Notes under the pieces: model-generated
The model's input: the letters and a program-made list of their open reading frames with translations, nothing else
Told to the model about the DNA's origin: nothing
The model's database searches: none
Part shown: in pieces, positions 38,957 through 64,000 of the stretch
How the letters are laid out: every line of letters begins with the position of its first letter
Position numbering within the stretch: position 1 is the first letter of the stretch
Assembly: GCA_018398585.1 (NCBI GenBank)
Contig: JAGTTD010000022.1
Span: 13,517,359 to 13,581,358 of the forward strand
Origin: Simmondsia chinensis
Taxonomy: Eukaryota; Streptophyta; Magnoliopsida; Caryophyllales; Simmondsiaceae
Reading direction: 5' to 3'
DNA: 64,000 nt
Position numbers and translations under genes: made by a program

Positions 38957-41900
38957 TAGAGGTGGCCAGTGGGCCAGGTTGGCCCAGAACCTGGCCCAAC
39001 CCGGCTCGTTTGTGCCTGGCCAAGCCCGGCCCACTCCCGTCCTATATCAGGCCAGGCCCGGTTGGCCCAATGGCCGTTGCTTCCCCCTTGCTTTTTAATA
39101 AAGACAAAAATATATATTGTCTATAAATCCCCATCCCCCCCCCCCCCCAATTCCATTTCCTTACAACAAATCTTCATTCAATTCTCTTATCTCCCTCTAC
39201 ATTCATCTACGTCATTCTACTTACAAGAATTGTGCACCAAATTGGCCACCTCTAGCTCGTAGAATCTCGATCAAGTTCGAATTTTATTGTTCACTTCGGT
39301 AATTTTAGTATCAAAATTTTATTTGTTTCGCATTTTTATCTACTTAATTTGTATTAGTAGTTGCATTTTTTAAACATTAATCATTAATACTATCATGGCA
39401 CACAACGTACCTTCATCCGGAGCCGGTCGTTCCAGTTCTAGCTCTTCTGGACATCCTAAAGTACCTAAGAGGGGTAGAGTTGTCGAACTTGATACTGATG
39501 AACGAGCATTTTTAGAACCAAGCTCATCACCTCCGTACACTGACACCATAGGTTGGAACCTCCAACATCAGTAGTACTACAACGACCAGGATTTTTCTGA
39601 GTCGGGTGGTGGTGGTGGAGACTTATAGACTAAAGAGGAACCCACACCCACCACCGAACCCCAGCCTGCAAAAACTAGTACTAGAAGGCGTAGTACTAGT
39701 GAGGTATGGAGGCACTTCAACTTAGATAGGAACAACAATAAAGCGATTTGTACATTATGTGACCCAGCCCAGGCTTTTAGTCATCCACCGGGCAGTGGGA
39801 CAGGCACATTAACTAGACATATAATTAGGTGCTGCCCCGAACAAGACCTAGATAGAGCCCAACAACAGTTAGTACAGCAAGCGACCGTTGTGCTTGCTAA
39901 CTTTCGGTTCTCCCAAGAAACTAATAGATGGGAACTAGCTAAATATATAATTAGGGTTGAAACGCCTTTTAGTACCGGCAAAGACCCTAGTTTCGTAGAG
40001 TATCTCCAAACTGCGGTAAACCCTGCCATCGTAAGGGTTCCTCGGAACACTTTAAAGCGGGACGTGTTTAAAGCTTACAATAAGATGAAAACTGAGGTCC
40101 TCGAAATTTTTAGGGCGAACACGAGCATGTTCTCATTGACATTCGACACTTGGAAGTCGAAACACAGTGTGCCATACTTGTGCGTAATGGCACACTGGAT
40201 TGGTTTCCTCCTTCACCATTCAAAAACGAATAATCCATTTTGCATATTTAGATTATCCCCACACTGCCGACATGATCACAGGTGCGATTATGGAGGCAGT
40301 TTGCTAGTGGGGGATAGAGCATCGTATTTTAGTATTCAGTTCGACAACGCTACTAGTAATAATGCATCCATTAAACAACTAAGTAGGCATATGAAACCCG
40401 TGTCAGGTGGGCGGTGTTTTCATTTACGTTGCATCTGCCATATATTGCATTTAATGGTGATGGATGGTTTAGGTCTAATAAATGCTTCTCTTTCCACCTT
40501 AAGAGATGTAACAGTAGCAATAAAATCACCCGGAACTACAAAGAGAAGATTTAAACTTCTCTGTAAGACGCATGGATTAGAGTATAAATATTTAAATTAA
40601 ACTCACCAACAAGGTGGTCATCAACCGTAGAAATGTTAGAGCGCATGCTACCATACAAGGATGTCCTAGTGAAATTTGTACAGGATACTGATTCAGATTT
40701 AAGTTATTATAATCTGAACGATGTACACTGGGACACAATTAACGAAATTTGTAAATTTTTTACCATTTTTAGAGACGCTACCAACTTTTTTTCGGTTGCT
40801 ATTATCCGACCATACCACAAGCAATATCTAGATTAATTAATATTGTATCTTGGATGTTGGAAAATGAATCCAACCCCATGGTGACTGAATCAATTAAGGC
40901 AATGAAAATGAAGTTTTATAAATATTATTCTGAACTACTTATTACATACTGTTTTGCCACTATTTTGGATCCCTGTTGTAAACTCACGGGTTTGAACTTG
41001 TTTGCTAAATATTTTTATGAACAATTAAAATATGATTTCAATACCCAAAAATTCATTGTACAAGTCAATTCAGACCTACACACTTTATTTTCTCATTATT
41101 CTCGGAGATTATCATCTGATAATCCATATGTTACCCCTACTACAGTTGGATCTTCTACATCTAGTGGAATTAGTACACATACGTCAATTGCATGAAAGCT
41201 GTTGGGCCAATTTATGCCCACACAAGCTTCCACGTCATGTGACGAGTTAGATTACTATATGTAGAAGACGCTATTCCAGTTCTTCCCGACACCGGCGAAT
41301 CCGCAATTTAATATTTTAAAATGGTGGTGTACAAATCAAACCCAGTATCCCGTGCTTTCCACCATGGCACGTGATATTCTAATATGTCTAGTGTCTTCAG
41401 TAGCATCGAAGTGTGCTTTTAGTCTTGGTGGGAGGTCGCTTGGGACGAAGAGGGCAAAGGTATCACCGTCCAGCTTGGAGACGTTTGTGTGCTTAAAGGA
41501 CTGGATGAACACAGAGGCTCGGGAGAAAAACGTATTGAGGCTGGGTTCATCGAGCGAGGACGAAGATGACCACACTACGGATACGTTAGACAGCAACACA
41601 ACAACCTCCCCAGCCAGCGTAGACTAATTTCTTATTGTTGTACGTTTATATCTTGTTTGTATTTTTTAATAAATATATTTGTACTTTTAAATAGTAGGAT
41701 CTCACTGCTGTAGTTGTAGTTGTTACATTATTTATTATGCATTTTATTTTATTACATATATTTAGCATTATTAATAATTGTGATGGATTGTATTTGTATC
41801 CTATGTTATTCATCAATGAATTATAATAATTTTTGTACAAAATGAATTTATATTTTTTTAATTTTACATGTTTAAAAAAACCAAAAAGGGGGGACCGGGC

Positions 41901-42760: not shown

Positions 42761-43123
42761 ACAAATGAATCACCCCCTTTAGACCCCCCAGCTCCTATTT
42801 AACCATAAATAGACCCCCTTAACCTTAAATAAACCTTTTTGGACAAAAATGCCCTCCCACCTCACCCCCCCCCCCCCCCTCCCAACCCGTCCTCTCTCTC
42901 TCCCATTCTCTCTCCTCATTTAATGCCCAGCCATTTACTTTACCCCATCCCCCCTCCATTTTCTCTCTCCTCATTTAATGCAAAAGTATATTTTTTTACT
43001 TTATGTCTTGTAATTTGCTTCTCACTCTTTACCTCCCTTCTCACTTCCCGCCCATTTTACCCCATTTTACTCACCTCTTATTCACCCTTCTTTGTTATTT
43101 TTCTCTCAATCTGAATTCCCCAA
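42761..43123. other. Pyrimidine-rich stretch left of the MULE
   Basis: CT-rich sequence with two copies of CTCTCTCCTCATTTAATGC (about 42909 and 42963) and a C run at 42863. It resembles a plant promoter or leader region and may be the promoter of the transposase gene. No gene. Confidence 0.35.
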
Positions 43124-43197
43124 GCTCCATTTTTTTTCATCCTCTGTGTGTCGTTCTGCTACATTGGGCCCGAGGAAGAAGAAGAAGAAGAAGCCCT
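43124..43197 (+). promoter_or_regulatory. Likely 5'-UTR exon of the transposase gene with splice donor
   Basis: Short GA-rich leader (GAAGAAGAAGAAGAAGAAGC) ending CCCTG|GTAAGATC, a near-consensus donor at 43197/43198. A second usable donor, TTGAAG|GTAAAATT, lies near 43288. Either would pair with the acceptor just before the start codon at 45939 and place the first satellite array in a 5'-UTR intron. Confidence 0.45.
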
Positions 43198-43339
43198 GGT
43201 AAGATCGTGTTTGAAGCTTTGTGGCATTGCTGTAGGTTCAAGGTTGTGTCGTTACACACATTTCACGGTTGTCAGATCAGATATTGAAGGTAAAATTATC
43301 ATTTGTTGACATTGTCGTTAATGTATCCTTGTCGTATGA

Positions 43340-45850
43340 GGTCGGTGTGTTAGAAGTCATTTATGGTGTATGATTTGTTTCAATGATGTATTATAACTTT
43401 CTTTTGGTGTGTTTGAACTCATTAGTGGTGTATGATTAATCATACACCGTGTATGATTGGTTTAAATGGTGTATTCTCATGTTGTATTGGGGTTTTTCAA
43501 GTCGTTAATAGTGTATGATCAATCATACACTGTGTATGATAGGTTTAAATGGTGTGAAATCAACTTGTTTAGGCGTGTTTCAAGTAATTAGGGGTATATG
43601 ATCAATCATACACCGTGTATGATAGGTTTTAATGGTATGAAATCAACTTGTGTTAGTGTGTTTCAAGTCATTAGTGGTGTATGATTAATCATACACCGAG
43701 TATGGTTGGTTTTAATGATGTAAAACAAACTTATCTAGGTGCGTATCAAGTAAACATTGGTGTATGATCAATCCTACACCGTGTATTGTTAGTTTTAGGG
43801 GTGTAAAAATAACTTATTCAGGCTTGTTTCAAGTAATTAGTGGTATAGGATCAATCATACACCGTTTATGATAGATTTTAATGGTGTGAAATCAACTTGT
43901 TTAGTTTGTCTTGAGTCATCAGTGGTGTGTGATTAATCATACACCTTGTATGGTTGGTTTTAAGAGTGTGAAATTAACTTATTCAGGTGTGTTTCATGTA
44001 ATTAGTGGTGTAGGATCAATCATACACCGTGTATGATAGGTTTTAATGGTGTGAAATCAACTTGTTTAGGTGTGTTTCAAGTAATTAGGGGTGTATGATC
44101 AATCATACACAGTGTATGATAGGTTTTAATGGTGTGAAATCAACTTGTTTAGGTGTGTTTCAAGTAATTAGTGGTGTATGATCAATCATACACAGTGTAT
44201 GATAGGTTTTAATGGTATAAATCAACTTATGTTATTGTGAGTTAAGTAAGCAAGTGGTGTATTATTAGTCATACACCGTGTATGATTTGTTTTTATAGTG
44301 TAAAAACGTGTGTTAGTGTGTTTTAAGTAAAGAGTGGTGTATGATTAGTCATACACTGTGTATGATAGGTTTTAATGGTGTAAAATCAGCTTGTTTAGGT
44401 GTCTTTCATGTAAAGAGTGGTGTATGGTCAATCATACACCGTGTATGATAGGTTTGAATGGTGTGAAATCAACTTGTTTATGTGTTTTTCAAGTAATTAA
44501 GGGTGTATGATAGGTTGTAATAGTGTGAAATCAACTTGTTTAGGTGTGTTTCAAGTAATTAGCGATATATGATCAATCATACACAGTGTATGATAGGTTT
44601 TAATGGTGTAAGTCGACTTATGTTAATGTGAGTTAAGTAAGAAGTGGTGTATTATTAGTCATACACCGTGTATGATTTTTTTTATGGTGTAAAAACGTGT
44701 GTCAGTGTGTTTTAAGTAAAGAGTGGTGTATGATTATTCATACACCGTGTATGATAGGTTTTAATGGTGTGAAATCAGCTTGTTTAGGTGTGTTTCATGT
44801 AAATAGTGGTGTATGATCAATCATACACCGTGTATGATAGGTTTGAATGGTGTGAAATCAACATGTTTAGATGTGTTTGAAGTGATTAGGGGTATATGAT
44901 CAATCATACACAGTGTATGATTGGTTTGATTGGTGTGAAATCAACTTGTTCAGGCGTGTTTCAAATAATTAGGGGTTTGTGATCAATCATACACCGTGTA
45001 TGATATATTTAATGGTGTGAAATCAACTTGTTTAGGTGTGTTTCAAGTAATTAGTAGTGTATGATCAATCATACACCGTGTATGATTGGTTTTTATGGTG
45101 TAAAACCAACTTGTGTAGATATTTTTTAAGTAATTAGTGGTGTATGATTAATCATACCCCGTGTATGAGTGGTTTTATTGGTGTGTTTGCAACTTGTTTA
45201 GTCGTGTTTCAAGTAAGTAGGGGTGTATGATCAATCATACACTGTGTATGATAGGTTTTAATGGTGTGAAATCAACTTGTTTAGGTGCGTTTCAAGTAAT
45301 TAGTGGTGTATGATCAATCATGAACCGTGTATGGTTGGTTCTAACGGTGTATGATAGCTTTAAAAGGTTTGTGATGAACCTGTTTTGGTGTCTTTCAAGT
45401 ATAGAATGGGGCATATTAAACCATACACTGTGTATGATAGCTTCAAAAGGTGTATGATGAACTTGTTTTGGTGTCTTTCAAGTACAGAATGGGGTATGGT
45501 TTACCATACATCGTGTATGATAGCTTTGAATGGTCTATGATGAACCCGTTTTGGTGTCTTTCTTGTATAGAATGTCGTTTCCTTAACCATACACTGTGTA
45601 TGACAGCTTTGAAAGGTGTGTGATGAACTTGTTTATGACTGTAATGCAAATCATACACCATGTATTCTTTCTTAAAGGGGTGTAATACCACGCTGTGTTG
45701 GTGTGTAATACCATGCTATAGCTGACATATAATACCATGCTTTGTTGGTGTGTGTTAAGTCATGTAGTTAGTGGTGCATCGTTAATCATAGACCGGGTAT
45801 GATGGGTTTAAATTCTGTAAAATCATCTGCATTGGTGTGTTACAGGTTTT
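43340..45850 (+). repeat. Satellite array 1 (~83-bp monomer) in the 5' intron of the transposase gene
   Basis: About 28 monomers of the form GTGTGTTTCAAGTAATTAG, then GTGTATGATCAATCATACAC, then CGTGTATGATAGG, then TTTTAATGGTGTGAAATCAA, then CTTG. Neighbouring copies of GTGTGTTTCAAG lie at 44071 and 44154 (83 bp). Each monomer holds three alternating half-sites forming two overlapping dyads. Variants with CATACACAGTGTATGA or CATACACTGTGTATGA change only the dyad centre. Divergence is moderate, highest at the right end. Confidence 0.9.
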
Positions 45851-45938
45851 TAGCTTTGTAGCTTTACATATACACGGTCTGTTAGTGTGTTTCATGTCAT
45901 TATTGCTTTGATATGATGTTGTTTTCTTGTCCACAGTA

Positions 45939-48615
45939 ATGGGTGATTTTGTTGCATGAGTTCTGTACGGTGGCCACTTTAAGGAGAGGGCACAGTACGT
46001 TGGTGGAAAATTGGGTTATTTTTTAGTGGATGAGAAAACTAACTTCGCTGGTTTGCAAAGAACTGTGGCGGAGGTGATTGGTGCTCAGTTGGATGCGGGT
46101 TCAAAGATGCATTTTCAATGTTTCACCGCCGTTCCGGCCGTGCCCTTGTACGATGTCGTTGATGATAGGTCAGTTATGCTTTGGAAGACACTAGCCAAAG
46201 AAGATAGGGCGAAGCATCCTTTGATCGTAACTGTACAGTCATCCGGTGACAGGAATCCTTCCTTCGATTGGCAAAGGACTCCCATTCAAACAATTCCCGA
46301 TGGTGACGAGAACAGTGGCCATTCGCACCCTGAGGTTCCCGAGACTTCTGGTGGATGTATGGATGTGGGGATGGAAGAAGCAGCCCGCGTAGATGCATCT
46401 GAAATCGATTTGAACATGCCTGCTGTGACTGTTGCGGCAACAGCAACAGGTGGAGATTGGGAAAATTCCAATCAAAGTGCATGGGACAATTTGGACAATA
46501 TCAATTTATCCCAGGTGCGACCGACTGTACCTGATGCATCACCTCCAGAGGGGCACACTTATGAGCATCGTAATATTTCCCCTGAAGACCCTCTGATTGT
46601 CGAACCTGCAGTGTAATGGAATGCGGAACCCAGCGGTCAACCGAATGTCCACCCGATGTCCAAGCTGCTGGTGATCCTCGTTATGATGATGATGCTGGCT
46701 CCGGTGATGAGAGGAGCCAGATTGACGGGGTATATGGGCAGGGTAGGATGGTTAATGTAATCGAGGTGCATCAAGTATTTGAATAGAAGAAGGATTTGTT
46801 GAATAACCTGGGAGTAATTGCCATAAGGGAAAAAATTGAATTCAAGAGCTTCAAGTCTAACAAATCCTTAACGGTTATTCGTTTTGTGCTAGAGGGTTGC
46901 ACATGGAGGGTTCGGGCTACGTGTCTAGCAGATGGTGGGTATTGGATGGTTACAAAATTTGAAAATAATCATACCCACCCTACCGATCTCACCACTGTTA
47001 GACACAGGCAGGCAACCAGTTGGGTCGTCGGGGAGTGCGTCCGCAAGAAACTTGTCAACCCCGGAAGAGTGTTCAAGCCATGGGATGTCATAGATGACAT
47101 CCGCAGTTGCTACGGTGTTGATATCAGCTACAATGTTGCATGGAGGGCGAGAGAGTTAGCATACGACAGTGTTAGATTGGGTACTGCCGAAGAGTCATAT
47201 GCATTCTTGCCTGCTTATCTGCAAGTCCTCCAACAGACTAACCCCGGTACCCGCATTTTATTTACGGACAGATGACGAAAGAAGGTTTAAGTACCTCTTT
47301 ATTGTGTTTGATGCTTCCCTGAAAGGGTACCAGTTTTGCCGGCCTGTTGTGAGCATTGACGCAACACATCTGAAGGGAAAATACAGGGGTGTTCTATTCA
47401 TGGCCGTTTGCCATGATGCCAACTAGCAAATTTTCCTGATTGCTGTTGGTATCGGTGATTCAGAGAATGATGCATCGTGGCATTGGTTCCTCAGTAGATT
47501 GAAAGAAGTCAATGGGGAGCCTATTGGCCATGTCATTGTATCTGATAGACACCGAGGCATCCAACGAGCGGTGGAAGAAGTTTTTCCCAACACATTTCAC
47601 GGGCTGTGCATGTACCACTTGCTGAACAACTTGAAGGCCAAATTCAAGAGCAAATCGAAGTAGTTGGATTAGTACTACTACAAAACAGCTAAAGCATACA
47701 ACATTCAAGAGTTCCATAGTTTGTTTTTCAGTTTATGTTGTGCCGTACCCGGGGCTAAAGATTACTTTGAAGATGTGGGACTGGACAAGTGGACTCGTTC
47801 CCACTCCTCTTGTCGTCGGTACAACATAATGACGACAAACATTTCAGAATCCATGAATGCTGTATTGGTCAAGGTGTGTGACTATCCAATTACTGCCCTC
47901 GTTGACGAGTTTAGGCTACTGTTGCAGAAGTGGTTTCATGACAGAAAAGCTAAGGCTGAAGCTTGCACCAGTACAATGTCCCCCGACGTCGAAAAGAAAT
48001 TACAAGACAGATTGAAATTATCAAAAACGATGACAGTAAGCTCCGTATAATTTATGATACGTGCATGTTTTGTGGGTTATTTGTTTAATTTATTTTTTAT
48101 TTTTTTATTGTTTTTGCGCCGTGCAGATTTTGCGAGCTGATGATCGTACTTTCGACGTCATCGATAGGGAGAAGAATTTCTGCCCAGATATGTCACAGAG
48201 GACATGTACCTGCCGCATGTTTCAGCTTGAGCAGCTTCCTTGTGAGCATGCGTTAGCCATCGTACGGCACAGTCCTTATGGTCTGTACGACTTATGCTCG
48301 CCGTACTACAGTAGAGAAAAATGGTACGAGTCGTACAGAGGTGTCGTCTACCCACTGCCGCACATAAGTGACTAGCGTATCCCGCATGATGTGTCTGACA
48401 TGAATCTTCTTCCACCTGACGTGCGAACCTCTTCTGGGAGGAGGCGGAAGAGGAGGATTCCGTCTGTCGATGAGGAGTGTGTTCATCAAAGGGGCAGTCG
48501 GTGCAAGGAACACGGGCATAACCGATCCACGTGCAAGAATCCAATTGCTCTACGTCCTAGTGCCAAAGGCACTTCATCAAACTCCCGCAGTCCTTCTTCT
48601 CAAGTCCCTCCTTGA
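45939..48615 (+). pseudogene. MULE transposase (mudrA-like), two exons, inactivated
   Basis: The start ATG (45939) follows an acceptor (TTCTTGTCCACAG). The N-terminal PB1-like region has YGGHFKERAQYVGGKLGYFL and VPLYDVVDD. A zinc DNA-binding part follows (VLEGCTWRVRATCLADGGYW, KFENNHTHP). The DDE core has RPVVSIDATHLKGKYRGVL (first D), GHVIVSDRHRGIQRAVEEVF (second D), HGLCMYHLLNNLKAKF and TTNISESMNAVL (E). An intron (48036-48126, GTAAGC...GTGCAG) precedes a SWIM finger (CTCRMFQLEQLPCEHALAIV) and a final zinc knuckle (CKEHGHNRSTCKNP). Catalytic residues remain. Stops at 45957, 46614, 46784, 47424, 47661, 47670 and 48373, plus frame changes near 46.6-46.8 kb and 47.26 kb, inactivate it. It would excise and reinsert the element in the nucleus. 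Confidence 0.93.
48036..48126 (+). other. Transposase intron
   Basis: GTAAGCTCCG at the donor and TTTGCGCCGTGCAG at the acceptor, 91 bp, T-rich. It keeps phase 0 between MTVSS-side exon 1 (ending K-T-M-T) and exon 2 (starting I-L-R-A-D-D). Confidence 0.8.
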
Positions 48616-48741
48616 CTGGTGTGACGTGTTGATGTATTTTCATTCTTTATTTATTTACATTCTTTATTTATTTTATTTTTTACAATGTATTTATTAATGA
48701 CAGTTTTGCAGTATCCATACCGCATTGACTGGTGTGACAGT

Positions 48742-48866
48742 GTTGATGTATTTTCAAATTATGTAATGAAATTTGTGAATGAAGTGATTTGAAGTTGGTC
48801 CCAAATGTGTGTTATATGTGTTTTGATATGATGGGTTAGTGTATTGGGTTATGTGTCGACACACAG
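48742..48866 (+). repeat. 3' flank of the transposase gene, inverted copy of 53000-53206
   Basis: TTGATGTATTTTCAAATT, GTAATGAAATTT, AAGTTGGTCCCAA, GTGTGTT and GTGTCGACACAC occur in this order. Their inverted complements lie in the same order at 53000-53206, downstream of the Ulp1 gene. The segment just before (48616-48760) contains a partial duplicate of GGTGTGAC-GTGTTGATGTATTTTCA. Confidence 0.8.
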
Positions 48867-48879
48867 AGCCCTGTGTGGA

Positions 48880-51735
48880 ACCCTTGCTGAGTAGGATATA
48901 CTGTGTTTGAAACGAATAGCTGTGTAAGATGAGTCATACACTGTGTATGATAAGTTACAAATGTGTCAAATGAACTTATATAGGTGCGTTTCAAGAAATT
49001 AGTGCAGTATGACTTATCATACACGGTGTATGATGAGTTGTATGGGTGTAAAATCAAGTTTTGCATGTTTGTTTCTAGTTTTGCTTGTATAATGGTGAAA
49101 AATCAGCTTTTATAAGTGTTTTTCAAGTAATTATTGGTGTATGATGGGTTATATTGGTATAAAATCAAGTTATATTGGTGTGTTTGAAACGAATAGCTCT
49201 GTAAGATGAGTCATACACTGTGTATGATAAGTTACAAATGTGTCAAATGAACTTATACAGGTGTGTTTCAAGAAATTAGTGTTGTATGACTTATCATACA
49301 CGGTGTATGATGCGTTGTATAGGTGTAAAATCAAGTTTTGCATGTTTGTTTCTAGTTTTGCTTGTATAATGGTGAAAAATCAGCTTTTATAAGTGTTTTT
49401 CAAGTAATTATTGGTGTATGATGGGTTATATTAGTGTAAAATCAAGTCATATTGGTGTGTTTGAAACGAATAGCTGTGTATGATGAGTCATACACTGTGT
49501 ATGACAAGTTACAAATGTGTCAAATGAACTTATATAGGTGTGTTTCAAGAAATTAGTGCTGTATGACTTATCATACACGGTGTATGATGCATTATATGGG
49601 TGTAAAATCAAGTTGTGCATGTTTGTTTCTAGTTTTGCTTGTCTAATGGTGAAAAATCAGCTTTTATAAGTGTTTTTCAAGTAATTATTGGTGTATGATG
49701 GGTTATATTGGTGTAAAATCAAGTTATATTAGTGTGTTTGAAACGAATAGCTCTGTAAGATGAGTCATACACTGTGTATGACAAGTTACAAATGTGTTAA
49801 ATGAACTTATATAGGTGTGTTTCAAGAAATTAGTGTTGTATGACTTATCATACACGGTGTATGATGCGTTGTATGGGTGTAAAATCAAGTTTTGCATGTT
49901 TGTTTCTAGTTTTGCTTGTATAATGGTGAAAAATCAGATTTTATAAGTGTTTTTCAAGTAATTATTGGTGTATGATGGGTTATATTGGTGTAAAATCAAG
50001 TTATATTGGTGTGTTTGAAACGAATAGCTCTGTAAGATGAGTCATACACTGTGTATGATAAGTTACAAATGTGTCAAATGAACTTATATAGGTGTGTTTC
50101 AAGAAATTAGTGTTGTATGACTTATCATACACGGTGTATGATGCGTTGTATAGGTGTAAAATCAAGTTTTGCATGTTTGTTTCTAGTTTTGCTTGTATAA
50201 TGGTGAAAAATCAGCTTTTATAAGTGTTTTTCAAGTAATTATTGGTGTATAATGGGTTATATTGGTGTAAAATCAAGTCATATTGGTGTGTTTGAAACGA
50301 ATAGCTGTGTATGATGAGTCATACACTGTGTATGACAAGTTACAAATGTGTCAAATGAACTTATATAGGTGTGTTTCAAGAAATTAGTGCTGTATGACTT
50401 ATCATACACGGTGTATGATGCGTTGTATGGGTGTAAAATCAAGTTGTGCATGTTTGTTTCTAGTGTTGCTTGTATAATGGTGAAAAATCAGCTTTTATAA
50501 GTGTTTTTCAAGTAATTATTGGTGTATAATGGGTTATATTGGTGTAAAATCAAGTTATATTGGTGTGTTTGAAACAAATAGCAGTGTAAGATGAGTCATA
50601 CACTGTGTATGATAAGTTACAAATGTGTCAAATGAACTTATATAGGTGTGTTTCAAGAAATTAGTGTTGTATGACTTATCATACACAGTGTATGATGCGT
50701 TGTATGGGTGTAAAATCAAGTTTTGCATGTTTGTTTCTAGTTTTGCTTGTATAATGGTGAAAAATCAGCTTTTATAAGTGTTTTTCAAGTAATTATTGGT
50801 GTATGATGGGTTATATTGGTGTAAAATCAAGTTATATTGGTGTGTTTGAAACGAATAGCTGTGTAAGATGAGTCATACACTGTGTATGATAAGTTACAAA
50901 TGTGTCAAATGAACTTATATAGGTGTGTTTCAAGAAATTAGTGTTGTATGACTTATCATACACAATGTATGATGAGTTGTATGGGTGTAAAATTAAGTTT
51001 TGCATGTTTGTTTCTAGTTTTGCTTGTATAATGGTGAAAAATCAGCTTTTATAAGTGCTTTTCAAGTAATTATTGGTGTATGATGTGTTATATTGGTGTA
51101 AAATCAAGTTATATTGGTGTGATTGAAACGAATAGCAGTGTAAGATGAGTCATACACTGTGTATGATAAGTTACAAATGTGTCAAATGAACTTATATAGG
51201 TGTGTTTCAAGAAATTAGTGTTGTATGACTTATCATACACGGTGTATGATGCGTTGTATGGGTGTAAAATCAAGTTTTGCATGTTTGTTTCTAGTTTTGC
51301 TTGTATAATGGTGAAAAATCAGCTTTTATAAGTGTTTTTCAAGTAATTATTGGTGTATGATGGGTTATATTGGTATAAAATCAAGTTATATTGGTGTGTT
51401 TGAAACGAATAGCTGTGTAAGATGAGTCATACACTGTGTATGATAAGTTACAAATGTGTCAAATGAACTTATATAGGTGTGTTTCAAGAAATTAGTGTTG
51501 TATGACTTATCATACACAATGTATGATGAGTTGTATGGGTGTAAAATTAAGTTTTGCATGTTTGTTTCTAGTTTTGCTTGTATAATGGTGAAAAATCAGC
51601 TTTTATAAGTGCTTTTCAAGTAATTATTGGTGTATGATGTGTTATATTGGTGTAAAATCAAGTTATATTGGTGTGATTGAAACGATTAGTGCTGTATGAC
51701 TTATCATACACGGTGTATGATACGTTTTAATAATC
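48880..51735 (+). repeat. Satellite array 2: ten 277-bp units plus partial
   Basis: The word GAAACGAATAGC (or variant) recurs at 48909, 49185, 49463, 49740, 50016, 50294, 50571, 50848, 51124, 51402 and 51679, exactly ten 277-bp periods. Each unit carries three sub-blocks related to the dyad monomer: GAGTCATACACTGTGTATGA, TTATCATACACGGTGTATGA and a half-site GGTGTATGATGGG. Units are far more alike than those of array 1. Shared variants recur 831 bp (three units) or 555 bp (two units) apart, showing recent amplification of blocks. Confidence 0.92.
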
Positions 51736-51739
51736 ATGA

Positions 51740-52367
51740 AATAGCGAGGTTGTGTATTATGAATGAAATTGTTTTAAATGGAGGAGGCTGACCATGTTGG
51801 GGTAGTTGGGGGTTGAACATTGAATGTTCAGGGGTCATAATGGACTACCAAGCAAGACATTTAGTAACCTCAACTACCACCTACTTTATCCTATCCCTCT
51901 CCCACGGTATTCCTCAATTTAATAACCTCAACTACCATCTACTTTGTATTTTGTATGCCTTTGCCTATAAATGGAGTAGTTGGACAGGAAGTCTAGCATA
52001 CACGGTTCCCCAATTTCGTGCTATATCTAGCCGTTCAAATTGCTAATGTAAGTGGTTCTAGCAGTGGCGGTGGTGGGCCAGTGACAGCCGAGCCGCAGGG
52101 AGAGGTGGCACTTCTACAGATAATGTTTCATCAACAGTGTTTCAAGTAATTAGTGGTGTATGATCAATCACACATAGTGTACGGTATATGATGAGTCGTA
52201 ATGGTGCGAAGTGCATCCGCATGAAAATAATCATATTGACACTTAACTATCTATATTCTATACTTTGTTGAATTTGTCATTTCAATTCCCAAATTATACC
52301 TGTACCGTGTTAGATTTTAGTCGTTCTTTGCTTCTAAATCTTTGAGTTTTCCTATGTCTTCTTTCAG
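51740..52367 (+). other. Unique segment with TATA-like motif and Gly-rich open stretch
   Basis: Contains a partial direct duplication (CCTCAACTACCACCTACTTT and CCTCAACTACCATCTACTTT, 58 bp apart, near 51871 and 51929). A TATA-like CTATAAATGGAG follows at about 51964. Then comes a stretch reading SGSSSGGGGPVTAEPQGEV (about 52047-52103). This looks like promoter plus leader/first-exon sequence and may have been captured with the fragment that follows. A few degenerate dyad units lie at 52140-52200. Nothing is firmly assignable. Confidence 0.35.
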
Positions 52368-52683
52368 AACGAGATGGCAACTTTAGAGCAAAAGAGGAAC
52401 GACGAGAACGTGTTGAAGTTGGCTGACGAGCACAAGGTCATTATGCTTCAATGCTCAACTCATTCATATTTCTCTTAGATTACGTTTTCATATTTTTCTC
52501 GATTTCGGTTGTGATTAACAGATAGAAAAAGAGGCGCATCAGAAAAGATAATCACCTTCGAGAAAGAGCTTGATCGCAAACAAGCGTTAGAGTTGGAAAT
52601 TCAGAGATTGAGAGGCACTGTACAAGTCATGGAACACTTGGGCCAGTGAAATATGCCCAGTTTGTCCTTCAAATTGTCTGCAA
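52368..52683 (+). pseudogene. Captured FDM/IDN2-like (XH/XS-domain) gene fragment, two exons with intron
   Basis: Exon 1 (52368-52436) follows an acceptor (TGTCTTCTTTCAG) and encodes NEMATLEQKRNDENVLKLAD then EHK, followed by a donor AAG|GT. Exon 2 (from 52522, acceptor TGTGATTAACAG) encodes an E-K-E-A-H-Q-K piece and, after a 1-base frame change at about 52548, IITFEKELDRKQALELEIQR then LRGTVQVMEHLGQ and a stop. The ordered blocks ATLEQ-K-DENV-KLAE-K, EK-LH-KII-LEKQLD-KQALELEI--L-G-L-VMKHM are those of the coiled coil before the XH domain of plant FDM/IDN2 proteins, dsRNA-binding partners in RNA-directed DNA methylation. The retained intron shows capture from genomic DNA. It is only a fragment (under 80 codons) and is frameshifted. 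Confidence 0.75.
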
Positions 52684-52749
52684 GGTAATTTAAATTATGT
52701 ATAACGTGAAGAAATGTACAAAGGATTTCCTGCAACTGTTCACAATTCA

Positions 52750-52985
52750 CGGTGTATGATAGTATAAAATGGTGTGAAATCAACTCCTTTTAATGTGTTT
52801 CAAGTACTTAGTGGTGTATAATCAATCATACACGGTTTATGATGAGTTTTAATGGGTAAAAACAACTTTCACATGTATTTTTAAGTTTGCTGGTAATTAT
52901 TGGTGTGTGATGAATCATACACGGGGTATGATGAGTTATATAGGCATAAAATCAACATATGTAGGTGTGGTTGACGTAAATCCCT
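52750..52985 (+). repeat. Short run of degenerate dyad monomers
   Basis: Three units with CACGGTGTATGATAG, ATCATACACGGTTTATGATG and ATCATACACGGGGTATGATG, spaced ~75-80 bp, oriented like arrays 1 and 2. They lie between the FDM-like fragment and the Ulp1 gene 3' flank. Confidence 0.75.
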
Positions 52986-52999
52986 GTTCTGTATGAATG

Positions 53000-53206
53000 T
53001 GTGTCGACACACGTTCCCCGTGTGTCGACACACACCTCTACATCCATTATCTGTAGGGATGTGTGTTGACACGCCATTCCTGTGTGTCAACACACATCGT
53101 TACACACTTCAAAAACACATCAAACACCAAGAACACACAATTGGGACCAATTTCGAAACACTTCAATTGATAATTTTCATTACACAATTTGAAAATATAT
53201 CAACAG
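53000..53206 (-). repeat. 3' flank of the Ulp1 gene with GTGTGTCGACACAC palindromes
   Basis: Carries two copies of the perfect palindrome GTGTGTCGACACAC (52999-53035) and two diverged ones (GTGTGTTGACACG, GTGTGTCAACACAC), then the block inverted relative to 48742-48866. Read on the minus strand it lies downstream of the Ulp1 stop and is probably its 3' UTR and terminator region. Confidence 0.75.
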
Positions 53207-54174
53207 GAATATACAACATTATTTTGTTCACAAAAAAATAAAAATATACAACAATATGGAAATATACAATATTACATACACATCACAACCTTTATACAAT
53301 TTTCAGTATAATGAATATAATGTCAATCCTATGGTAATATACAATAACATATACACATCATATAATTGTATTCACATGTATACATTTGCATCTGTTTCTT
53401 TCTTCCATGTCTGTACAAGTGTACACAGGTATTCAGCCGCATTTTCCTCATCTGCCCTTGCGTGCATTGGTGGATGCTGAGTCCATTTGTAAGCAAAAAT
53501 TCAATAAACTTTACAACAAAAATGCCACAATCTGACCTACAGTTCATAATAATACAGATGAGACAATAAGAAACTATACATCACTGTAAGTAATGACTAT
53601 TTTGCATCCACTTAATAACCAAAAGGCCGAATGAACGGAATAGTAAAACTGCATAGGAAGTAGAGGTCATACCCCATCTGTTGTGGACATTCACCCCGGT
53701 AGGCTTGCCTCTGAAATTTAGGAGGTCCTTTCGGACATCCCAAAAATTAACCATATCTAGAGCATATGGAAGCAATATTGCAATTGGTTCCACATGTTCT
53801 AATCTTGATTCCTTGGCTGCGGCGGAGTACAAAGAATCAATTACCTGTATCTGCCATTTTTTAAAATGGATGGCAGTAAGGAACCAATGTTGATTAGGTT
53901 GATTGATGGCATGTATATCCGATCCACGTCGTGGCAGCGGATCCCATATGGGACATCCCCGGCAAGAAACTTAATGATCAACGATTCAAAATCATAAAAA
54001 GCTGACTGGACTGGGATTTCTCTGTTTTGAGTCCGTTTGAGTAGGGTCCAAATAAAGGAGCAACCGACGTAGACGCACATCTTGCCCTCTAGTTGAAATG
54101 CTCCGGCCACTGATGTTTTTTCTCCAGAATATAGTGCAGAACTACATCCATTTCCCGCAATTCACCACTAATTA

Positions 54175-55262
54175 GTTGAAACACCCTAACACAAGTTGTT
54201 CTTAGGCAAGTAAAACCTATCATACATGATGTATGGTTAACCATATACCACTAATCACTTCAAAAACACATAAACAAGTTGAATTTACACAATTAAACCC
54301 TATCATACATGGTGTATGACTAATCATGCACCACTCTTTACTTAAAACATACTAACACAAGTTGGTTTTACACCTTTAAAACTAATCATACACGGTGTAT
54401 GACTAATGATACACCACTTGCTAACTTAACACACAATAACATAAGTCGATTTACCCCATTAAAACATATCATACACGGTGTATGATTGATCATACACCAC
54501 TTATTGTGAAACACACCCATACAAATTGATTTCACACCCTTAAAACCAATCATACACGGTGTATGACTAATAATACACCACTTGTGTTTGATACACACAA
54601 TAACATAAGTTGATTTACACCATTAAAACATATCATACACGGTGTATGATTGATCATACACCACTTATTACTTGAAACACACCCATACAAGTTGATTTCA
54701 CACCCTTAAAACCAACTATACACGGTGTATGACTAATAATACACCACTTGTGTTTGATACACACAATAACATAAGTCGATTTACACCATTAAAACATATC
54801 ATACACGGTGTATGATTGATCATACACCACTTATTACTTGAAACACACCCATACAAGTTGATTTCACACCCTTAAAACCAATCATACACGGTGTATGACT
54901 AATAATACACCACTTGTGTTTGATACACACAATAACAGAAGTCGATTTACACCATTAAAACATATCATACACAGTGTATGATTGATCATACACCACTTAT
55001 TACTTGAAACACACCCGTACAAGTTGATTTCGCACCCTTAAAACCAATCATACATGATGTATGACTAATAATACACCACTTGTGTTTGATACACACAATA
55101 ACATAAGTCGATTTACACCATTAAAACATATCATACACGGTGTATGATTGATCATACACCACTTATTACTTGAAACACACCTATACAAGTTGATTTCACA
55201 CCCTTAAAACCTACCATACACGGTATATTATTCATCATACACCACTAATTAGTTGACACACC
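54175..55262 (-). repeat. Satellite array 3 inside a protease-gene intron
   Basis: About 13 monomers in the opposite DNA orientation to array 1, hence co-oriented with the protease gene. They alternate between two variants (CATACACGGTGTATGACTAA with AATACACCACTTG, and CATACACGGTGTATGATTGA with TCATACACCACTTATTA), giving a ~166-bp dimer (twice 83). The intron runs from the donor at 55326 to about 54166, so the array fills nearly all of it. Confidence 0.9.
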
Positions 55263-55831
55263 ACAAAAAAGACTGGGATCCAATTACAGTAATCACACGA
55301 CAAAATTTTCATGATGGGAAACATACCTCATCCGTAAGCCAGGCGCCATCATTTTTCAACTGATACCAAAATTGACCCGTCGTGGCAGTCAAAACAGTGA
55401 AATCCATTCGTTGATCCGGAGGTAACGGAAGGGGAGTCTTCAAATCTCTGTAATATATAATAAGAAGCATGATATATAAGCATCCCATAAGAAAGATGCA
55501 TTCTGGAAACATTTACATACTGATTATCAAAAAGTATAGTGTAAAATCACACTCACTTCTTAACCATTGCATGAAACCTTTTGTAAAAAGCTTCAAACTG
55601 CTTTTTGTCTTCCTTGGAGGGAGGTTGGAATGGATCGAAGGGCAGAACCGGTTCCGGTCCAGGATGGGTCATTCTTGCCCGTTTGCTCTTACCCTCTGCT
55701 GTCCATTCTTCACCTTTATTCTTGGGATTTGGCTTGGGGTCCCTCCTCTCTTGCCACAATCTCAAAACTGTCTCGGACAATGTCATCAAGTTTTCAACGC
55801 CATCCACACGCGTTGACGATAATTCCTTGTA

Positions 55832-56137
55832 GACATTTTCCTCGTCCCTAGTTGGCAGAGCAAATACCAAAGTCAATAAACCTCAACACGCATGAAAACA
55901 TACCAAATTAGGACAATAACAAGGATCCGTAGTGTCATACCTAGTACGTGCAGGAGAAATAATAATTTCTTGCTCAATTGGTTCCTGGTAGACATAATCC
56001 TCGTCCCTGGTTGGCAGAGCAAATACCAAAGTCAATAAACCTCAACATGCGTGAAAACATACCAAATTGGGATAATAACAAGGATCCGTAGTGTCTTACC
56101 CAGTACATGCAGGAGAAATAATAATTGCTTGCTCAAT
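55832..56137 (-). repeat. 159-bp tandem duplication of an exon-intron unit in the protease gene
   Basis: GTTGGCAGAGCAAATACCAA followed by GTCAATAAACCTCAACAYGC occurs at 55851 and 56010. The rest of the unit, including acceptor, a 66-bp exon and donor, is repeated with ~93% identity by eye. Both copies of the splice sites look usable, so the duplication added an in-frame exon. Confidence 0.85.
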
Positions 56138-57769
56138 TGGGGATGGATGAGCGGAAGTCGATGAATAGATTTGTGCGGATGTGGCATGTGGTGGACGGTC
56201 TAAGAGCTCCTTAATCATTGCCTCCTGAGCCTCAAACCGTCATTCGTACATTTGCAGCTGAAGCTGCTGCGCTTCAAGTTTGCTTTCGAAGTGCATCCGC
56301 ATGGTTTGCATATCTTTCTCCATCACTTCGAATCTCTCCATAACCTGCAATAAGTCCTCCAAATTGTCATAAACATGAATTTGAATAATATAGCACTTAC
56401 AAGGATAAAAATGCAATTAAATAAACAAAAAACAAAATGTCAATACCGATTGATGTGCCAAATTGGGTGACGTAGTAGATGGTTCCTCTTGGGATGCCAG
56501 CAAAGGGGTGTTGAGTGGCCAATGGTTCTGGTTCATCACCTGGATCTGCCGGCATTGCCTTAACAGGAGATTGAATCCCCTCCTCACCATCCTCAGCAAA
56601 GGAGATGCTCGTAGATTAGGCTGATTGGCTTCCGCACCCGTCAGTCCAATCCGTTCGGCATTCAATTGCTGATCAAAGGAAGATACATCATATGAACGTT
56701 AGTAAAATTACAAATCATAATTCTAACCCAAATGATATGAAACAACTAGTAGTAAAACAGCAACAACATAATGTATTATTACCTCATCAAATACCATTGA
56801 GAGCAGAGCGGAGTACGAAACCTTAACACACATCTTCCAGTTAAGGATCCGCCCAAGAGGCTGGTTGCCAACCCTCACCACCCCAACCTTGGTAAGTTCT
56901 GGAAGGGTTTCCAGGGCAAATATGGAAACCACATCATAGAACCCGTGGACGGAGTAGGTCCTTTCTAAACCGTGTTGCATTCTTGCAACAAAATCCTTGA
57001 GCTTCCGCACCAAGAATTTCCAGCTCAAGGATCCCCAGGCAACACTGTTAAAAGAGTCCACGTCGTCCACGAGGGCCAGGATGTTGGGATCAATGCCTAT
57101 TCGCTTATGTTTGGCGAACAGTAGACCCTCAACCAAGTAGGCAACAACAAGCTTAACCTAGTCCTCCATGATGGAGCAGGTTCTACATGCTTCAAACAGC
57201 TGCTGCCTAGTCATCCTCCCCCTCATGCCGTACTTGGCAATCAGCCTGTTGGAACCTCCGCGTACCTCTTCCACACCGGCATATCTCAAGCCGGTTAGAA
57301 TGCAAAATTCCCTCCTCCCGAGGTGCACTAACTTCCCACCAAATGAGAATGATAACTCCTCGGGATTTGGGTTGGCCACCTGGTGTAGAAGGACAATGTG
57401 AATTAAACTATGCCAGAAGCCAACATTAGTCTCACTCAGCTGAAGCAGATGCCCGACATTGTATTGTGAAAAAAGGGCAAGCTGTAATGGAAAATATTTT
57501 TAGTTAATAAGGGATCATAAATGTAATTGTAAAAAGTAAACATAATTCATATAGATACTGTGCCAAACCTTGGCTTCGTCGTCCTTCAAGATTTCCTGAA
57601 TCTCCGTCACAACTTTGGTTGATACTCCCATTTGGTTAATTTGCAGGAATTTCGAGCAACTCCTTGGGAAAATATAATCAACCTCCACTGCTGAACGGCT
57701 CTTCCTGCGTGTGTAAAATGCCATCTGAAATAAAAGCAAAGCATCAAAAAACTAGAGATTAAACCCATT

Positions 57770-60700
57770 ATACACCATTGCAACAAGCCATGCAAGGTGT
57801 ATGATTAGGCATACACCACCACTGACATGAAACACACCCAGACAAGTTGATTTCACTCAATGAAAACCTACCATACACGATGTATGATTGATCATACACC
57901 ACTGTTTACTTGATACACACCTTGGTAAGTTCGTTTCACAACATTAAAAGCAACCATACACGGTGTATGGTTGTTCATAACCCACAAATTACTTAAAAAA
58001 CGTCTACACAAGTTGATTTTACACCATTAAAACCAATCATACACAGTGTATGTCTACTTAACACACATAAACACAAGTTGGTTATTCACCATTAAAACCA
58101 ATCATACACAGTGCATGGTTGTTCATAACCCACTAATTACTTAAAAAAAGTCCACACACGTCGATTTTACACCATTAAAACCAATCATACACAGTGTATG
58201 ATTAACCATACACCACTGTCTAATTAACACACACAAACACATGTTGGTTAGACACCATTAAAACCAATCATACACAGTGTATGGTTGTTCATAACCTACT
58301 AATTACTTAAAAAATGCCTACACAAGTTGATTTTACACAATTAAAACCAATCATACACAGTGCATGATTGATCATACACCATTAATTAATTAACACACAT
58401 AAACACAAGTTGGTTATTCACAAGTGTATGATCTTACACAAGTTGATTTTACACAATTAAAACCAATCATACCCAGTGTATGATTGATCATACACCATTA
58501 ATTACTTAACACACACAAACACAAGTTGGTTATTCGCCATTAAAACCAATCATACGTGCATGATTGTTCATAAACCACTAATTACTTTAAAAACATCTAC
58601 AAGTTGATTTTAAACCATTAAAACCAATCATGTATAGTGTATGATTCACCATACACCATTGTCTACTTAACACACACAAACACACGTTGGTTAGACACCA
58701 TTAAAAGCAATCACACACAATGTATGGTTGCCATAACCAAATAATTACTTAAAAAACATCTGCACAAGTTGATTTTACACCATTGAAACCAATCAGACAC
58801 AGTGTATGATTGATCATACACCATCAATTACTTAACACACACAAACATAAGTTGGTTATTCACCATTAAAACCAATCAATCATACACCATCAATTACTCA
58901 ACACATACAAACACAAGTTGGTTATTCACCATTAAAACCAATCATACACAGAGTGTATGGCTGCTCATAACCCACTAATTATTTAAAAAACGTCTACAAG
59001 TTCATTTTACACCATTAAAACCAATCATGCACAGTGTATGATTCACCATACACCGCTGTCAACACATGTTGGTTAGACACCATTAAAACCAATCATACAT
59101 AGTGTATGGTTGTTCATAACCCACTAATTACTTAAAAAACACAAACACACATTGGTTAGACACCATTAAAAGCAATCATACACAATGTATGGTTGCCCAT
59201 AACCAACTAATTATATAAAAACGTCCGCACAAGTTGATTTTACACCATTGAAACTAATCAGACACAGTGTATGATTGATCATACACCATCAATTACTTAA
59301 CACACACAAACACAAGTTGGTTATTCACCATTAAAACCAATCATACACAGAGTGTATGGTTGCTCATAACCCACTAATTACTTCAAAAACGTCTACAAGT
59401 TGATTTTACACCAATAAAACCAATCATGCACAGTGTATAATTCAACATGCACCACTGTCTACTTAACATACACAAACACACGTTGGTTAGATACCATTAA
59501 AAGCAATCATACACAATGTATGGTTGCCCATAACCAACTAATTACTTAAAAAACGTCTGCACAAGTTAATTTTACACCATTAAAACCAATCAGACACAGC
59601 GTATGATTGATCATAGACCATGAATTACGTAACACATACAAACACAAGTTGGTTATTCACCATTAAAACCAATCATACATAGAGTGTATGGTTGCCCATA
59701 ACCCACTAATTACTTAAAAAATGTCTTCAAGTTTATTTTACACCATTAAAACGAATCATGCACAGTGTATGATTCACCATACACTACTGTCTACTTAACA
59801 CACACAAACACACGATTGTTAGACACCATTAAAACCATTCATACAAAGTGTATGGTTGTTCATAACCCACTAATAACTTAAAAAACAAAAATACACGTTG
59901 GTTAGACACCATTAAAAGCAATCATACACAATGTATGGTTGCCCATAACTAACTGATTACTTAAAAAACGTCTACACATGTTGATTTTACACCATTAAAA
60001 CCAATCAGACACAGTGTATGATTGATCGTACACCATCAATTACTTAACACACACAAACACAAGTTGGCTATTCCCCATTAAAACCAATCATACACAGAGT
60101 GTATGGTTGTTCATAACCCACTAATTCCTTCAAAAACGTCTACAAGTTGATTTTAAACCATTAAAACCAATCATGCACAGTGTACGATTCACCATACACC
60201 ATTGTCTACTTAACACACACAAACACACGTTGGTTGGACACCATTAAAAGCAATCATACACAATGTATGGTTGCCCATAACCAAATAATTACTTAAAAAA
60301 CGTCTGCACAAGTTGATTTTACACCATTGAAACCAATCAGACAGAGTGTATGATTGATCACATACCATCAATTACTTAACACACAAACACAAGTTGGTTA
60401 TTCCCCATTAAAACGAATCATACACAGAGTGTATGGTTGCTCATAACCCACAAATTATTTAAAAAACGTCTACAAGTTCATTTTACACCATTAAAACCTA
60501 TCATGCACAGTGTATGATTCACCATACACCACTGTCTACTTAATACATACCAACACACGTTGGTTAGACACCATTAAAACCAATCATACACAGTGTATGG
60601 TTGCTCATGACCCACTAATTACTTAAAAAACACAAACACGCGTTGGTTAGACACCATTAAAACCAATCATACACAATGTATGGTTGCCCATAACCAACTG

Positions 60701-63700
60701 ATTACTTTAAAAACGTCTGCACAGGTTGATTTTACACCACTAAAACCAATCAGACACAGTGTATGATTGATCATACACCATCAATTACTTAACACACACA
60801 AACACAAGTTGGTTATTCACCATTAAAACCAATCATACACAGAGTGTATGGTTGTTCATAACCCACTAATTACTTCAAAAATGTCTACAAGTTGATTTTA
60901 CACCAATAAAACCAATCATGCACAGTGTATGATTCACCATACACCACCGTCTACTTAACACACACAAACACACGTTGGTTAGACACCATTAAAAGTAATC
61001 ATACACAACGTATGTTTGCCCATGACCAACTAATTACTAAAACAACATCTGCACAAGTTGATTTTATACCATTAAAACCATTCAGACATAGTGTATTATT
61101 GATCATACACTATGAATTACTTAACACACACAAACACAAGTTAGTTATTCACCATTAAAACCAATCATACACAAAGTGTATGGCAGCCCATAACCCACTA
61201 ATTACTTAAAAAATGTCTACAAGTTGATTTTACACCATTAAAACCAATCTTGCACAGTGCATGATTCACCATACACTACTGTCAACTTTACACACACAAA
61301 CACACGTTTGTTAGACACCATTAAAACCAATCATACAAAGTGTATGGTTGTTCATAACCCACTAAATACTTAAAAAACACAAATACACGTTGGTTAGACA
61401 CCATTAAAAGTAATCATACACAATGTATGGTTGCCCATAACCAACTCATTACTTAAAAAACGTTTGCACAGGTTGATTTTATACCATTAAAATCAATCAG
61501 ACACAGAGTATGATTGATCATACACCATCAATTACTTAACACACACAAACACAAGTTGGTTATTCACCATTAAAACCAATCATACACAGAGTGTATGGTT
61601 GTTCAAAACCCACTAATTACTTCAAAAACGTCTACTCGTTGATTTTAAACCATTAAAACCAATCATGCACAGTGTATGATTCACCATACACCATTGTTTA
61701 CTTAGCATACACAAACATACGTTGGTTAGACACTATTAAAACCAATCATGCACAATGTACGTTTCACCATACACCAATGTCTACTTAACACACACAAACG
61801 CACGTTGGTTAGACACCATTAAAAGCAATCATACACAATGCATGGTTGCCAATAACCAAATAATTACTTAAAAAATGTCTGCACAAGTTGATTTTACACC
61901 TTTGAAATCAATCAGACGCAGTGTATGATTGATCATACACCATCCATTACTTAACACACGCAAGCACAAGTTGGTTATTCACCATTAAAACCAATCATAC
62001 ACAGAGTGTATGGTTGCTCATAACCCACTAATTAATTAAAAAAAATCTACAAGTTGATTTTACACCATTAAAACCAATTATGCGCAGTGTATGATTCATG
62101 ATACACCACTGTCTACTTAATACACACAAACACACGTTGGTTAGACACCATTAAAACCAATCATACACAGTGTATGTTTGCCAATAACCAACTAATTACT
62201 CAAAAAATGTCTGCCCATGTTGATTTTACACCATTGAAACCAATCAGACACAGTGTATGATTGATCATACACCATCAATTACTTAACACACACAAACACA
62301 AGTTGGTTATTCACCATTAAAACCAATCATACACAAAGTGTATGGCAGCCCATAACCCACTAATTACTTAAAAAATGTCTACAAGTTGATTTTACACCAT
62401 TAAAACCAATCATGCACAGTGCATGATTCACCATACACTACTGTCCACTTAACACACACAAACACACGTTTGTTAGACACCATTAAAACAATCATACAAA
62501 GTGTATGGTTGTTCATAACCCACTAAATACTTACAAAACACAAATACACGTTGGTTAGACACCATTAAAAGTAATCATACACAATGTATGGTTGCCCATA
62601 ACCAACTCATTACTTAAAAAACGTTTGCACAGGTTGATTTTATATCATTAAAATCAATCTGACACAGTGTATGATTGATCATACACCATCAATTACTTAA
62701 CACACACAAACACAAGTTGGTTATTCACCATTAAAACCAATCATACACAGAGTGTATGGTTGTTCAAAACCCACTAATTACTTCAAAAACATCTACTCGT
62801 TGATTTTAAACCATAAAAACCAATCATGCACAGTGTATGATTCACCATACACCATTGTTTACTTAGCATACACAAACACACGTTGGTTAGACACCATTAA
62901 AAGCAATCATACACAATTTATGGTTGCCCCTAACCAAATAATGACTTAAAAAATGTCTGCCCAAGTTAATTTTACACCATTGAAACCAATCAGACACAGT
63001 GTATGATTGATCATAAACCATCAATTACTTAACACACACAAGCACAAGTTGGTTATTCACCATAAAAACCAATCATACACAGAGTGTATGGTTGCTCATT
63101 ACCCACTAGTTATTTAAAAAACGTCTACAAGTTGATTTTACACCAATAAAACCAATCATGCACAGTGTATGATTCACCATGCACCACTGTCCACTTAACA
63201 CACACAAACACACGTTGGTTAGACACCATTAAAAGCATTCAGACACATTGTATGGTTGCCCATAACCAACTAATTACTTAAAAAAAGTTTGCACAAGTAG
63301 ATTTTACACCATTAAAACCAATCAGACAAAGTGTATGATTGATCATACACTATGAATTACTTAACACACACAAACACTCACCATTAAAACCAATCATACA
63401 CAGACTGTATGGTAGCCCATAACCCACTAATCACTTGAGAAATGTCTACAAGTTGATTTTACACTGTTAAAACCAATCATACACAGTGTATGATTCACCA
63501 TACACTACTGTCTACTTAACACACACAAACACACATTTGTTAGACACCTTTAAACCAATCATACAAAGTGTATGGTTGTTCATAACTCACTAATTACTTA
63601 AAAAACACAAATACACGTTGGTTAGACACCATTAAAACCAATCATACACAATGTATGGTTGCCCATAACCAACTGATTACTTTAAAAACGTCTGCACAGG

Positions 63701-64000
63701 TTGATTTTACACCACTAAAACCAATCAGACACAGTGTATGATTGATCATACACCATCAATTACTTAACACACACAAACACAAGTTGGTTATTCACCATTA
63801 AAACCAATCATGCACAGAGTGTATGGTTGTTCATAATCCACTAATTACTTCAAAAATGTCTACAAGTTGACTTTAAACCATTAAAACCAATCATGCACAG
63901 TGTATGATTCACCATACACCATTGTCTACTTAACACACACAAACACACGTTGGTTAGATACGATTAAAAGCAATCATACACAATGTATGGTTGCCCATAA
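57770..64000 (-). repeat. Satellite array 4 with higher-order structure
   Basis: About 75 monomers of ~83 bp, co-oriented with the protease gene, run off the window. A marker variant CACAGAGTGTATGG (2-bp insertion in the dyad centre) recurs near 60838, 61584, 61999, 62745, 63077, 63399 and 63812. Counting a CACAAAG variant at 61170 and 62332, intervals are about 415 or 332 bp, i.e. five or four monomers. Other monomer types have dyads CATGCACAGTGTATGATTC, CATACACAATGTATGGTTG and CAGACACAGTGTATGATTG. The acceptor TTTTATTTCAG at 57725 suggests this array lies in the 5' intron of the protease gene. Confidence 0.9.

Follow-up and report, generated by a model that had tools for sequence, protein, structure and literature searches.

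A jojoba Mutator-like element with arrays of an 83-bp dyad satellite in its non-coding DNA and a possible VANC-like anti-silencing system

Experiments in Arabidopsis have characterised sequence-specific anti-silencing by the transposon protein VANC in detail (PMC5735166). VANC is the DUF1985 protein of VANDAL Mutator-like elements (MULEs); according to Hosaka et al. 2017 (PMC5735166) it also contains DUF287, binds short motifs of 8-9 bp and causes hypomethylation. In VANDAL21 these motifs share one orientation and form dense tandem repeats in the introns of VANC21 and VANB21, upstream of VANA21, in intergenic DNA and in terminal DNA, and the unrelated element AT9TSD1, which carries the VANC6 motif, also responds to VANC6 (PMC5735166). 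RNA-directed DNA methylation targets the same regions as VANC, and VANDAL terminal inverted repeats (TIRs) are described as degenerate (Sasaki et al. 2023, PMC10398659). Some VANC genes bear Ulp1 and are called KIU in a 2026 review (PMC13317346). Here we describe a MULE of jojoba (Simmondsia chinensis) with a DUF1985-Ulp1 gene and arrays of an 83-bp satellite, found in a stretch of 64,000 nucleotides (contig JAGTTD010000022.1, C15:13517359-13581358 of an 831 Mb genome), hereafter the window.

The MULE starts at about 42.78 kb in the window and comprises a mudrA transposase gene (+) and a DUF1985-Ulp1 protease gene (-) in convergent orientation. This copy is a decayed, truncated member of a high-copy, TIR-bearing MULE family. 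Because of the close fit to the VANDAL layout we take the arrays to be VANC-like binding platforms for the element's own DUF1985-Ulp1 protein, which together would form an anti-silencing system; we put the probability of this reading at roughly 0.5. The match of the layout to VANDAL21, the restriction of the satellite half-site, the conservation of its dyad, the proximity of DUF1985 exons to the satellite and the sense orientation of the arrays all favour a VANC-type reading. So do the presence of the same array in an unrelated transposable element (TE) family, as in AT9TSD1 with its VANC6 motifs, and the dN/dS values of less than 0.4 for the window copy. The 83-bp monomer was located in the window by Tandem Repeats Finder (TRF) and a monomer hidden Markov model (HMM), and the features of the element are as follows (window coordinates, strand, evidence in brackets).

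42778..42926, +, left terminal region with homology to the TIRs of complete copies (blastn, 85% to the c6938 TIR)
42844..43289, +, mudrA leader with putative exon of the 5'-untranslated region (5'-UTR) (83% to the c4016 leader; donor GAAG/GTAA in 8/8 leaders)
43290..45936, +, putative mudrA 5'-UTR intron with 30 monomers at 43,367-45,875 (+) (conserved donor and acceptor; HMM)
45939..48618, +, mudrA transposase gene, broken (Pfam; stops, frame changes)
48741..48866, +, segment 3' of mudrA (forms a 78% inverted repeat with 53,080-53,205, 3' of the protease gene)
48901..51711, +, intergenic array with a 277-bp higher-order unit, 96% matches (TRF, HMM)
52137..52174, +, single monomer fragment between the genes (HMM)
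52753..52986, +, three monomers between the genes (HMM)
53375..57724, -, DUF1985-Ulp1 gene, broken (Pfam DUF1985 and Peptidase_C48 above cut-off)
54155..55326, -, internal protease intron with 14 monomers at 54,160-55,271 (-) (HMM; comparison with relatives)
55823..56140, -, 159-bp tandem duplication in the protease gene, by eye exon plus intron (TRF, 92% matches)
57797..64000, -, array 5' of the protease ATG, monomers to 63,980 within the window (TRF, HMM)

A sequence-only reading of the window had proposed convergent transposase and protease genes with arrays 5' of each and in an internal protease intron, all of which was confirmed by TRF, HMM and Pfam; its list of arrays lacked the one at 48.9-51.7 kb. 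When 40 kb of downstream contig was added, the protease-side array was found to end at 82,577 and to comprise 299 monomers over 24.8 kb. The outermost 14-bp TIR motif was unrecognisable in the left terminal region of the window copy, and its right TIR or end and its protease leader were not found up to 104 kb.

Array stretches on contig C1, chosen by the places of a monomer 24-mer, yielded further copies from the same genome, as that reading had suggested. The exact 24-mer places on C1 form 19 clusters at 25-kb grouping, and the 13 stretches examined cover 12 of them. Nine of these stretches contain MULE genes. Four copies have both ends (c4016, 13.2 kb; c4197, 17.8 kb; c6396, 17.6 kb; c6938, 12.4 kb), and further MULE genes are present in c10991, c11355, L032, L033 and L035. 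All four both-ended copies carry the terminal motif (G)GGAAATCGTACGG at both ends, with TIR homology over about 300 bp, and all four are flanked by 9-bp target site duplications (TSDs), of which two are perfect, one matches at 8/9 positions and the fourth is perfect provided that the first TIR base is mutated. The transposase domain, the TIRs and the 9-bp TSDs place the element in the MULE (Mutator) superfamily, to which it had been assigned from the window alone. Two of the four copies are internally deleted, c4016 being without the 5' part of the protease gene and c6938 without an array between the genes.

Read inward from the mudrA end, all four both-ended copies show TIR, array 1, leader, array 2 and ATG in succession, and the protease side of c4197, c6396 and c6938 is arranged alike. 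By our tally the arrays of the 5' arms run in the sense direction of the detected gene in 13/13 cases on the mudrA side and 10/10 on the protease side. In close copies the array consensus varies with the position in the element and is common to copies at equal position. A separate observation concerns c1346 (L013-L016, C1:1346001-1386000), where each of two tandem units about 18-19 kb apart comprises five array blocks; pieces of TIR and leader were present in this stretch, with no match to mudrA or the protease.

The mudrA ATG at 45,939 lies 2 bases past an acceptor (...ttcttgtccacag) and the protease ATG at 57,724 abuts another (...ttttatttcag, in one copy ...ttttag); both placements had been read from the window correctly, and each acceptor is kept in 5/5 copies looked at. 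The mudrA donor (window 43,289/43,290) recurs in all eight aligned leaders and the protease leader donor GTGAGTAAG in 3/3 copies. By these conserved donors and acceptors by the ATGs, array 2 falls within a putative 5'-UTR intron in both genes, with array 1 lying beyond that intron, and the conserved splice sites suggest that the array-bearing introns are spliced. A GTAAG at 43,199 was rejected as the main mudrA donor, being present in the window and three more distant leaders and missing from the four complete copies. At the acceptor of the internal protease intron the window has GG where c4016, c4197, c6396, L032 and c10991 have AG. The intron between ...WLTDE and EMDV... measures 272 bp in c4016, c4197, c6396 and L032 versus 1,172 bp in the window, and most protease-gene monomers of c4197 and c6396 lie in the intron neighbouring this one.

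The earlier proposal that the satellite resides in introns is therefore supported by conserved splice sites for the 5'-UTR introns of both genes and for the internal protease intron. It fails as a rule, since the largest arrays of the both-ended copies adjoin the TIRs outside the leader and another lies between the genes (not in c6938). The stretch from 57.7 kb onward had likewise been proposed to be an intron; relatives have arrays in a putative protease 5'-UTR intron, and in the window copy, where neither a leader nor a TIR was found on the protease side, the stretch is at most a candidate intron. Nor was such placement new to the literature, as had been supposed, because tandem target motifs had already been reported upstream of VANA21 and within the introns of VANC21 and VANB21 (PMC5735166).

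The most conserved part of the 83-bp satellite is a 19-bp dyad, ATCATACAC-N-GTGTATGAT. Across 15 arrays the conservation of the dyad columns was 0.917 versus 0.709 for the rest, and 0/80 register shifts scored as high. As this test was open to bias from local alignment ends, it was repeated with rotated register and three more arrays, and among these 18 arrays the values were 0.874 and 0.730, with 0/81 as high. The half-site TGTATGAT was counted in c4197, c6396 and the window. None lies in the coding intervals of mudrA and the protease gene, which partly include short introns, against 8.4-20.9 per kb in the 5' and protease-intron arrays; elsewhere its density per kb is 3.2-9.1 between the genes, 0-1.5 in TIRs and leaders and 0-0.13 in the flanks. 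A CpG at the dyad centre was considered as a universal methylation switch and rejected; it is frequent in some arrays and occurs 0-2 times in the four c6396 arrays counted.

Confinement to non-coding DNA as such requires no function, and the satellite might be a neutral minisatellite, that is, a functionless 83-bp unit born in the element, whose growth through slippage and unequal exchange is tolerated wherever it misses coding sequence and whose dyad persists as hairpins aid copying. The sizes of array 1, with 22, 22, 27 and 33 monomers in copies whose leaders are 95-98% alike, would agree with such growth, as would the 24.8 kb of array beside the window protease gene. We nevertheless consider this explanation rather doubtful, because drift affects the spacer and spares the dyad, array types keep to their position in the element, and another TE family has the same array 5' of its transposase (see below).

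In the complete copies the largest arrays occupy mirror-image subterminal positions, and another possibility is that the arrays are a subterminal region that has overgrown and serves either to bind the mudrA protein or to drive transcription. Precedents would be the TIRs of MuDR, which contain promoters as well as transposase sites, and MULEs whose TIRs are arranged in tandem (PMC3310237). This explanation is unlikely in our view, for the internal protease intron and the intergenic DNA are filled as well, the two longest copies have 0 and 1 half-sites in their TIR regions, and the tandem unit is the 83-bp monomer, with only a partial inner TIR copy seen in the leader. The TIR was also tried, and dismissed, as the source of the tandem unit, since what is repeated is the monomer and not the TIR as in tandem-TIR elements.

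Both genes of the element could be assigned by their domains. In the window mudrA gene, which carries in-frame stops and frame changes and a short coding intron at about 48,046-48,126, the MULE domain (PF10551, 83.5 bits; 63.1 bits in c6938) and SWIM were above their Pfam cut-offs, and DBD_Tnp_Mut scored below its 25-bit cut-off in the window (19.7) and above it in c6938 (32.5). The window protease gene scored above cut-off for DUF1985 (49.3 bits) and Peptidase_C48 (PF02902, 23.6 bits), and DUF1985 was also above cut-off in two other scanned copies. Motifs with the His, Asp and Cys of the C48 domain were recognised by eye as NQHWFL, DSLY and SDCG, the last in a following exon. By these features the protein belongs to the Ulp1 (C48) proteases, with predicted activity. 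The closest mudrA proteins found among 7,995 scored candidates come from Ulmus minor and share 39-69% identity over parts; no protease homologue was found among 7,990 scored candidates, and no solved structure was found by sequence.

A search for the DUF1985 family showed that, of 521 candidates, all 150 that were scored were above cut-off and that 124/150 were stop-free by eye. An exact satellite site lay within 15 kb of 10 of the 11 DUF1985 exons on C1 and the listed part of C2, compared with a random mean of 0.18, and 0/20,000 random sets reached 10 exons. Comparison of the window copy with two others gave a mudrA dN/dS of 0.31-0.36, and comparison with four others gave 0.24-0.34 in the DUF1985 exon; mudrA of c6938 versus c4197 gave 0.51. 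The dN/dS pattern indicates past constraint and recent decay.

The satellite was further found in three C1 stretches, L034, L036 and L037, which showed no MULE match and belong to a CACTA family. The arrays consist of 15, 16 and 8 monomers, respectively:

L034:4,293-5,506, CACTA satellite array
L036:4,505-5,804, CACTA satellite array
L037:3,980-4,641, CACTA satellite array

In L034 and L036 the array lies 5' of open reading frames (ORFs) with a tnp2 domain; L034 also carries Transpos_assoc, DUF4218 and DUF4216, and L037, which has common flanks, has Transpos_assoc. Array position and orientation agree in 3/3. Over 81 columns the L036 and L037 arrays have the same majority consensus as the right array of c11355, L034 differing at two, and the junction of CACTA flank and array recurs at 19 places on 10 contigs (control 0). 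The identical array consensus and these junctions show that the satellite is common to two superfamilies, and this sharing between MULE and CACTA holds whichever way the transfer ran. The satellite is not exclusive to the MULE, and in this respect the view of the sequence-only reading that it is the element's own is unsupported.

That reading had also named a free centromeric or subtelomeric satellite as an outcome that would speak against it. The satellite is abundant, since the monomer 24-mer with up to 2 mismatches has 15,776 forward and 14,650 reverse places in the genome (reversed-pattern control 0), and it occurs in a non-MULE context, so that MULEs might have inserted into it or picked it up by chance. 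We regard such an origin as highly improbable. All 13 examined array stretches on C1 lie in transposons, nine with MULE genes, one with MULE TIR and leader pieces only and three with CACTA, and neither TRF nor the monomer HMM detected a monomer in window positions 1-43,366.

In the VANC-type mechanism that we propose, the DUF1985 protein would bind the dense dyad sites and, once bound, would free its own family's copies of DNA methylation. Wherever coding is undisturbed, the sites would be expanded and homogenised through slippage and unequal exchange, and the non-coding DNA (subterminal regions, 5'-UTR introns of both genes, protease introns and intergenic DNA) would become packed with satellite. 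The CACTA family might profit from the MULE-encoded factor. We infer the DUF1985 protein as the binder, de-silencing by its binding and the benefit to CACTA from the comparison with VANC. More tentatively, the satellite may be a portable anti-silencing handle, in which the MULE makes the DUF1985-Ulp1 factor and a CACTA family with the array 5' of tnp2 exploits it in trans; if so, this CACTA family would be a natural parasite of another transposon's escape from silencing by way of a mobile satellite.

Several observations weigh against this mechanism. The jojoba unit is an 83-bp dyad in kilobase arrays and not an 8-9-bp motif as in VANDALs (PMC5735166), and the TIRs extend over about 300 bp where those of VANDALs are degenerate (PMC10398659). 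DUF287, which VANC has, was not found in the pieces scanned, the gene having been scanned piecewise. Because of the differing unit and array size, the long TIRs and the DUF287 result, we liken the element to the VANC system and do not class it as a VANDAL. The CACTA arrays are antisense to the transposase, and arrays between the MULE genes occur in either orientation, those of c4016, c4197 and c6396 being mostly opposite to the window array at 48,901-51,711. The dyad signal became smaller under the rotated register, and dN/dS of the DUF1985 exon was 1.5-1.8 in three close copy pairs with 2 synonymous changes each.

The locus shows a VANC-like layout outside Arabidopsis, combined with long TIRs, a DUF1985 protein that bears Ulp1 and satellite-sized candidate target arrays. 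The 19-bp dyad motif and the DUF1985-Ulp1 protein are concrete candidates for studies of binding and methylation, and the CACTA family is a natural case of a second transposon holding the same candidate target. The proposed system might also help to explain the retention of TE-borne satellites in introns.

Two coiled-coil exon-like pieces at window 52,368-52,646 (+), between the two genes, were seen in the window copy only among the copies compared; we take them to resemble FDM/IDN2 proteins of RNA-directed DNA methylation, and a search gave no match. Outside the element the window contains an unrelated 194-bp tandem array of about 10 copies at 14,053-15,989 (TRF). By eye we further take an ORF at 9,563-10,672 (-) to resemble an ISY1-type splicing factor, ORFs at 22,501-25,200 (-) to resemble pieces of a copia polyprotein and an ORF at 39,629-40,600 (+) to resemble a hAT-type transposase.

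Among known MULEs, the second gene of maize MuDR is mudrB, where the jojoba element has the DUF1985-Ulp1 gene, and MuDR is not known to carry satellite arrays. The two elements have in common two convergent genes transcribed from terminal regions (PMC3310237). Tandem-TIR MULEs are similar in that terminal sequence is duplicated, which in jojoba takes the form of a partial inner copy of the TIR within the leader, but their repeated unit is the TIR and ours is an unrelated 83-bp monomer (PMC3310237). As in the KI-MULEs and other Ulp1-bearing MULEs of Arabidopsis, melon, rice and grapevine, the Ulp1 gene lies downstream of the transposase and convergent with it (PMC2528002); the jojoba element has satellite arrays, which the KI-MULE passages of that paper do not mention. 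Ulp1 is also present in the KIU versions of VANC (PMC13317346). The closest likeness is to VANDAL21/Hiun and VANDAL6, which are MULEs with an element-encoded DUF1985 protein and repeats of the same orientation in introns, upstream, intergenic and terminal DNA, and VANDAL/VANC also provides parallels for the unrelated TE that shares the motif and for the tandem duplication within the DUF1985 gene (PMC5735166). Kilobase arrays outside Arabidopsis may already be in print. Compared with the Arabidopsis VANDALs, the features that differ are the kilobase-scale 83-bp dyad satellites, the long TIRs, the DUF1985-Ulp1 partner and the sharing of the satellite with CACTA.

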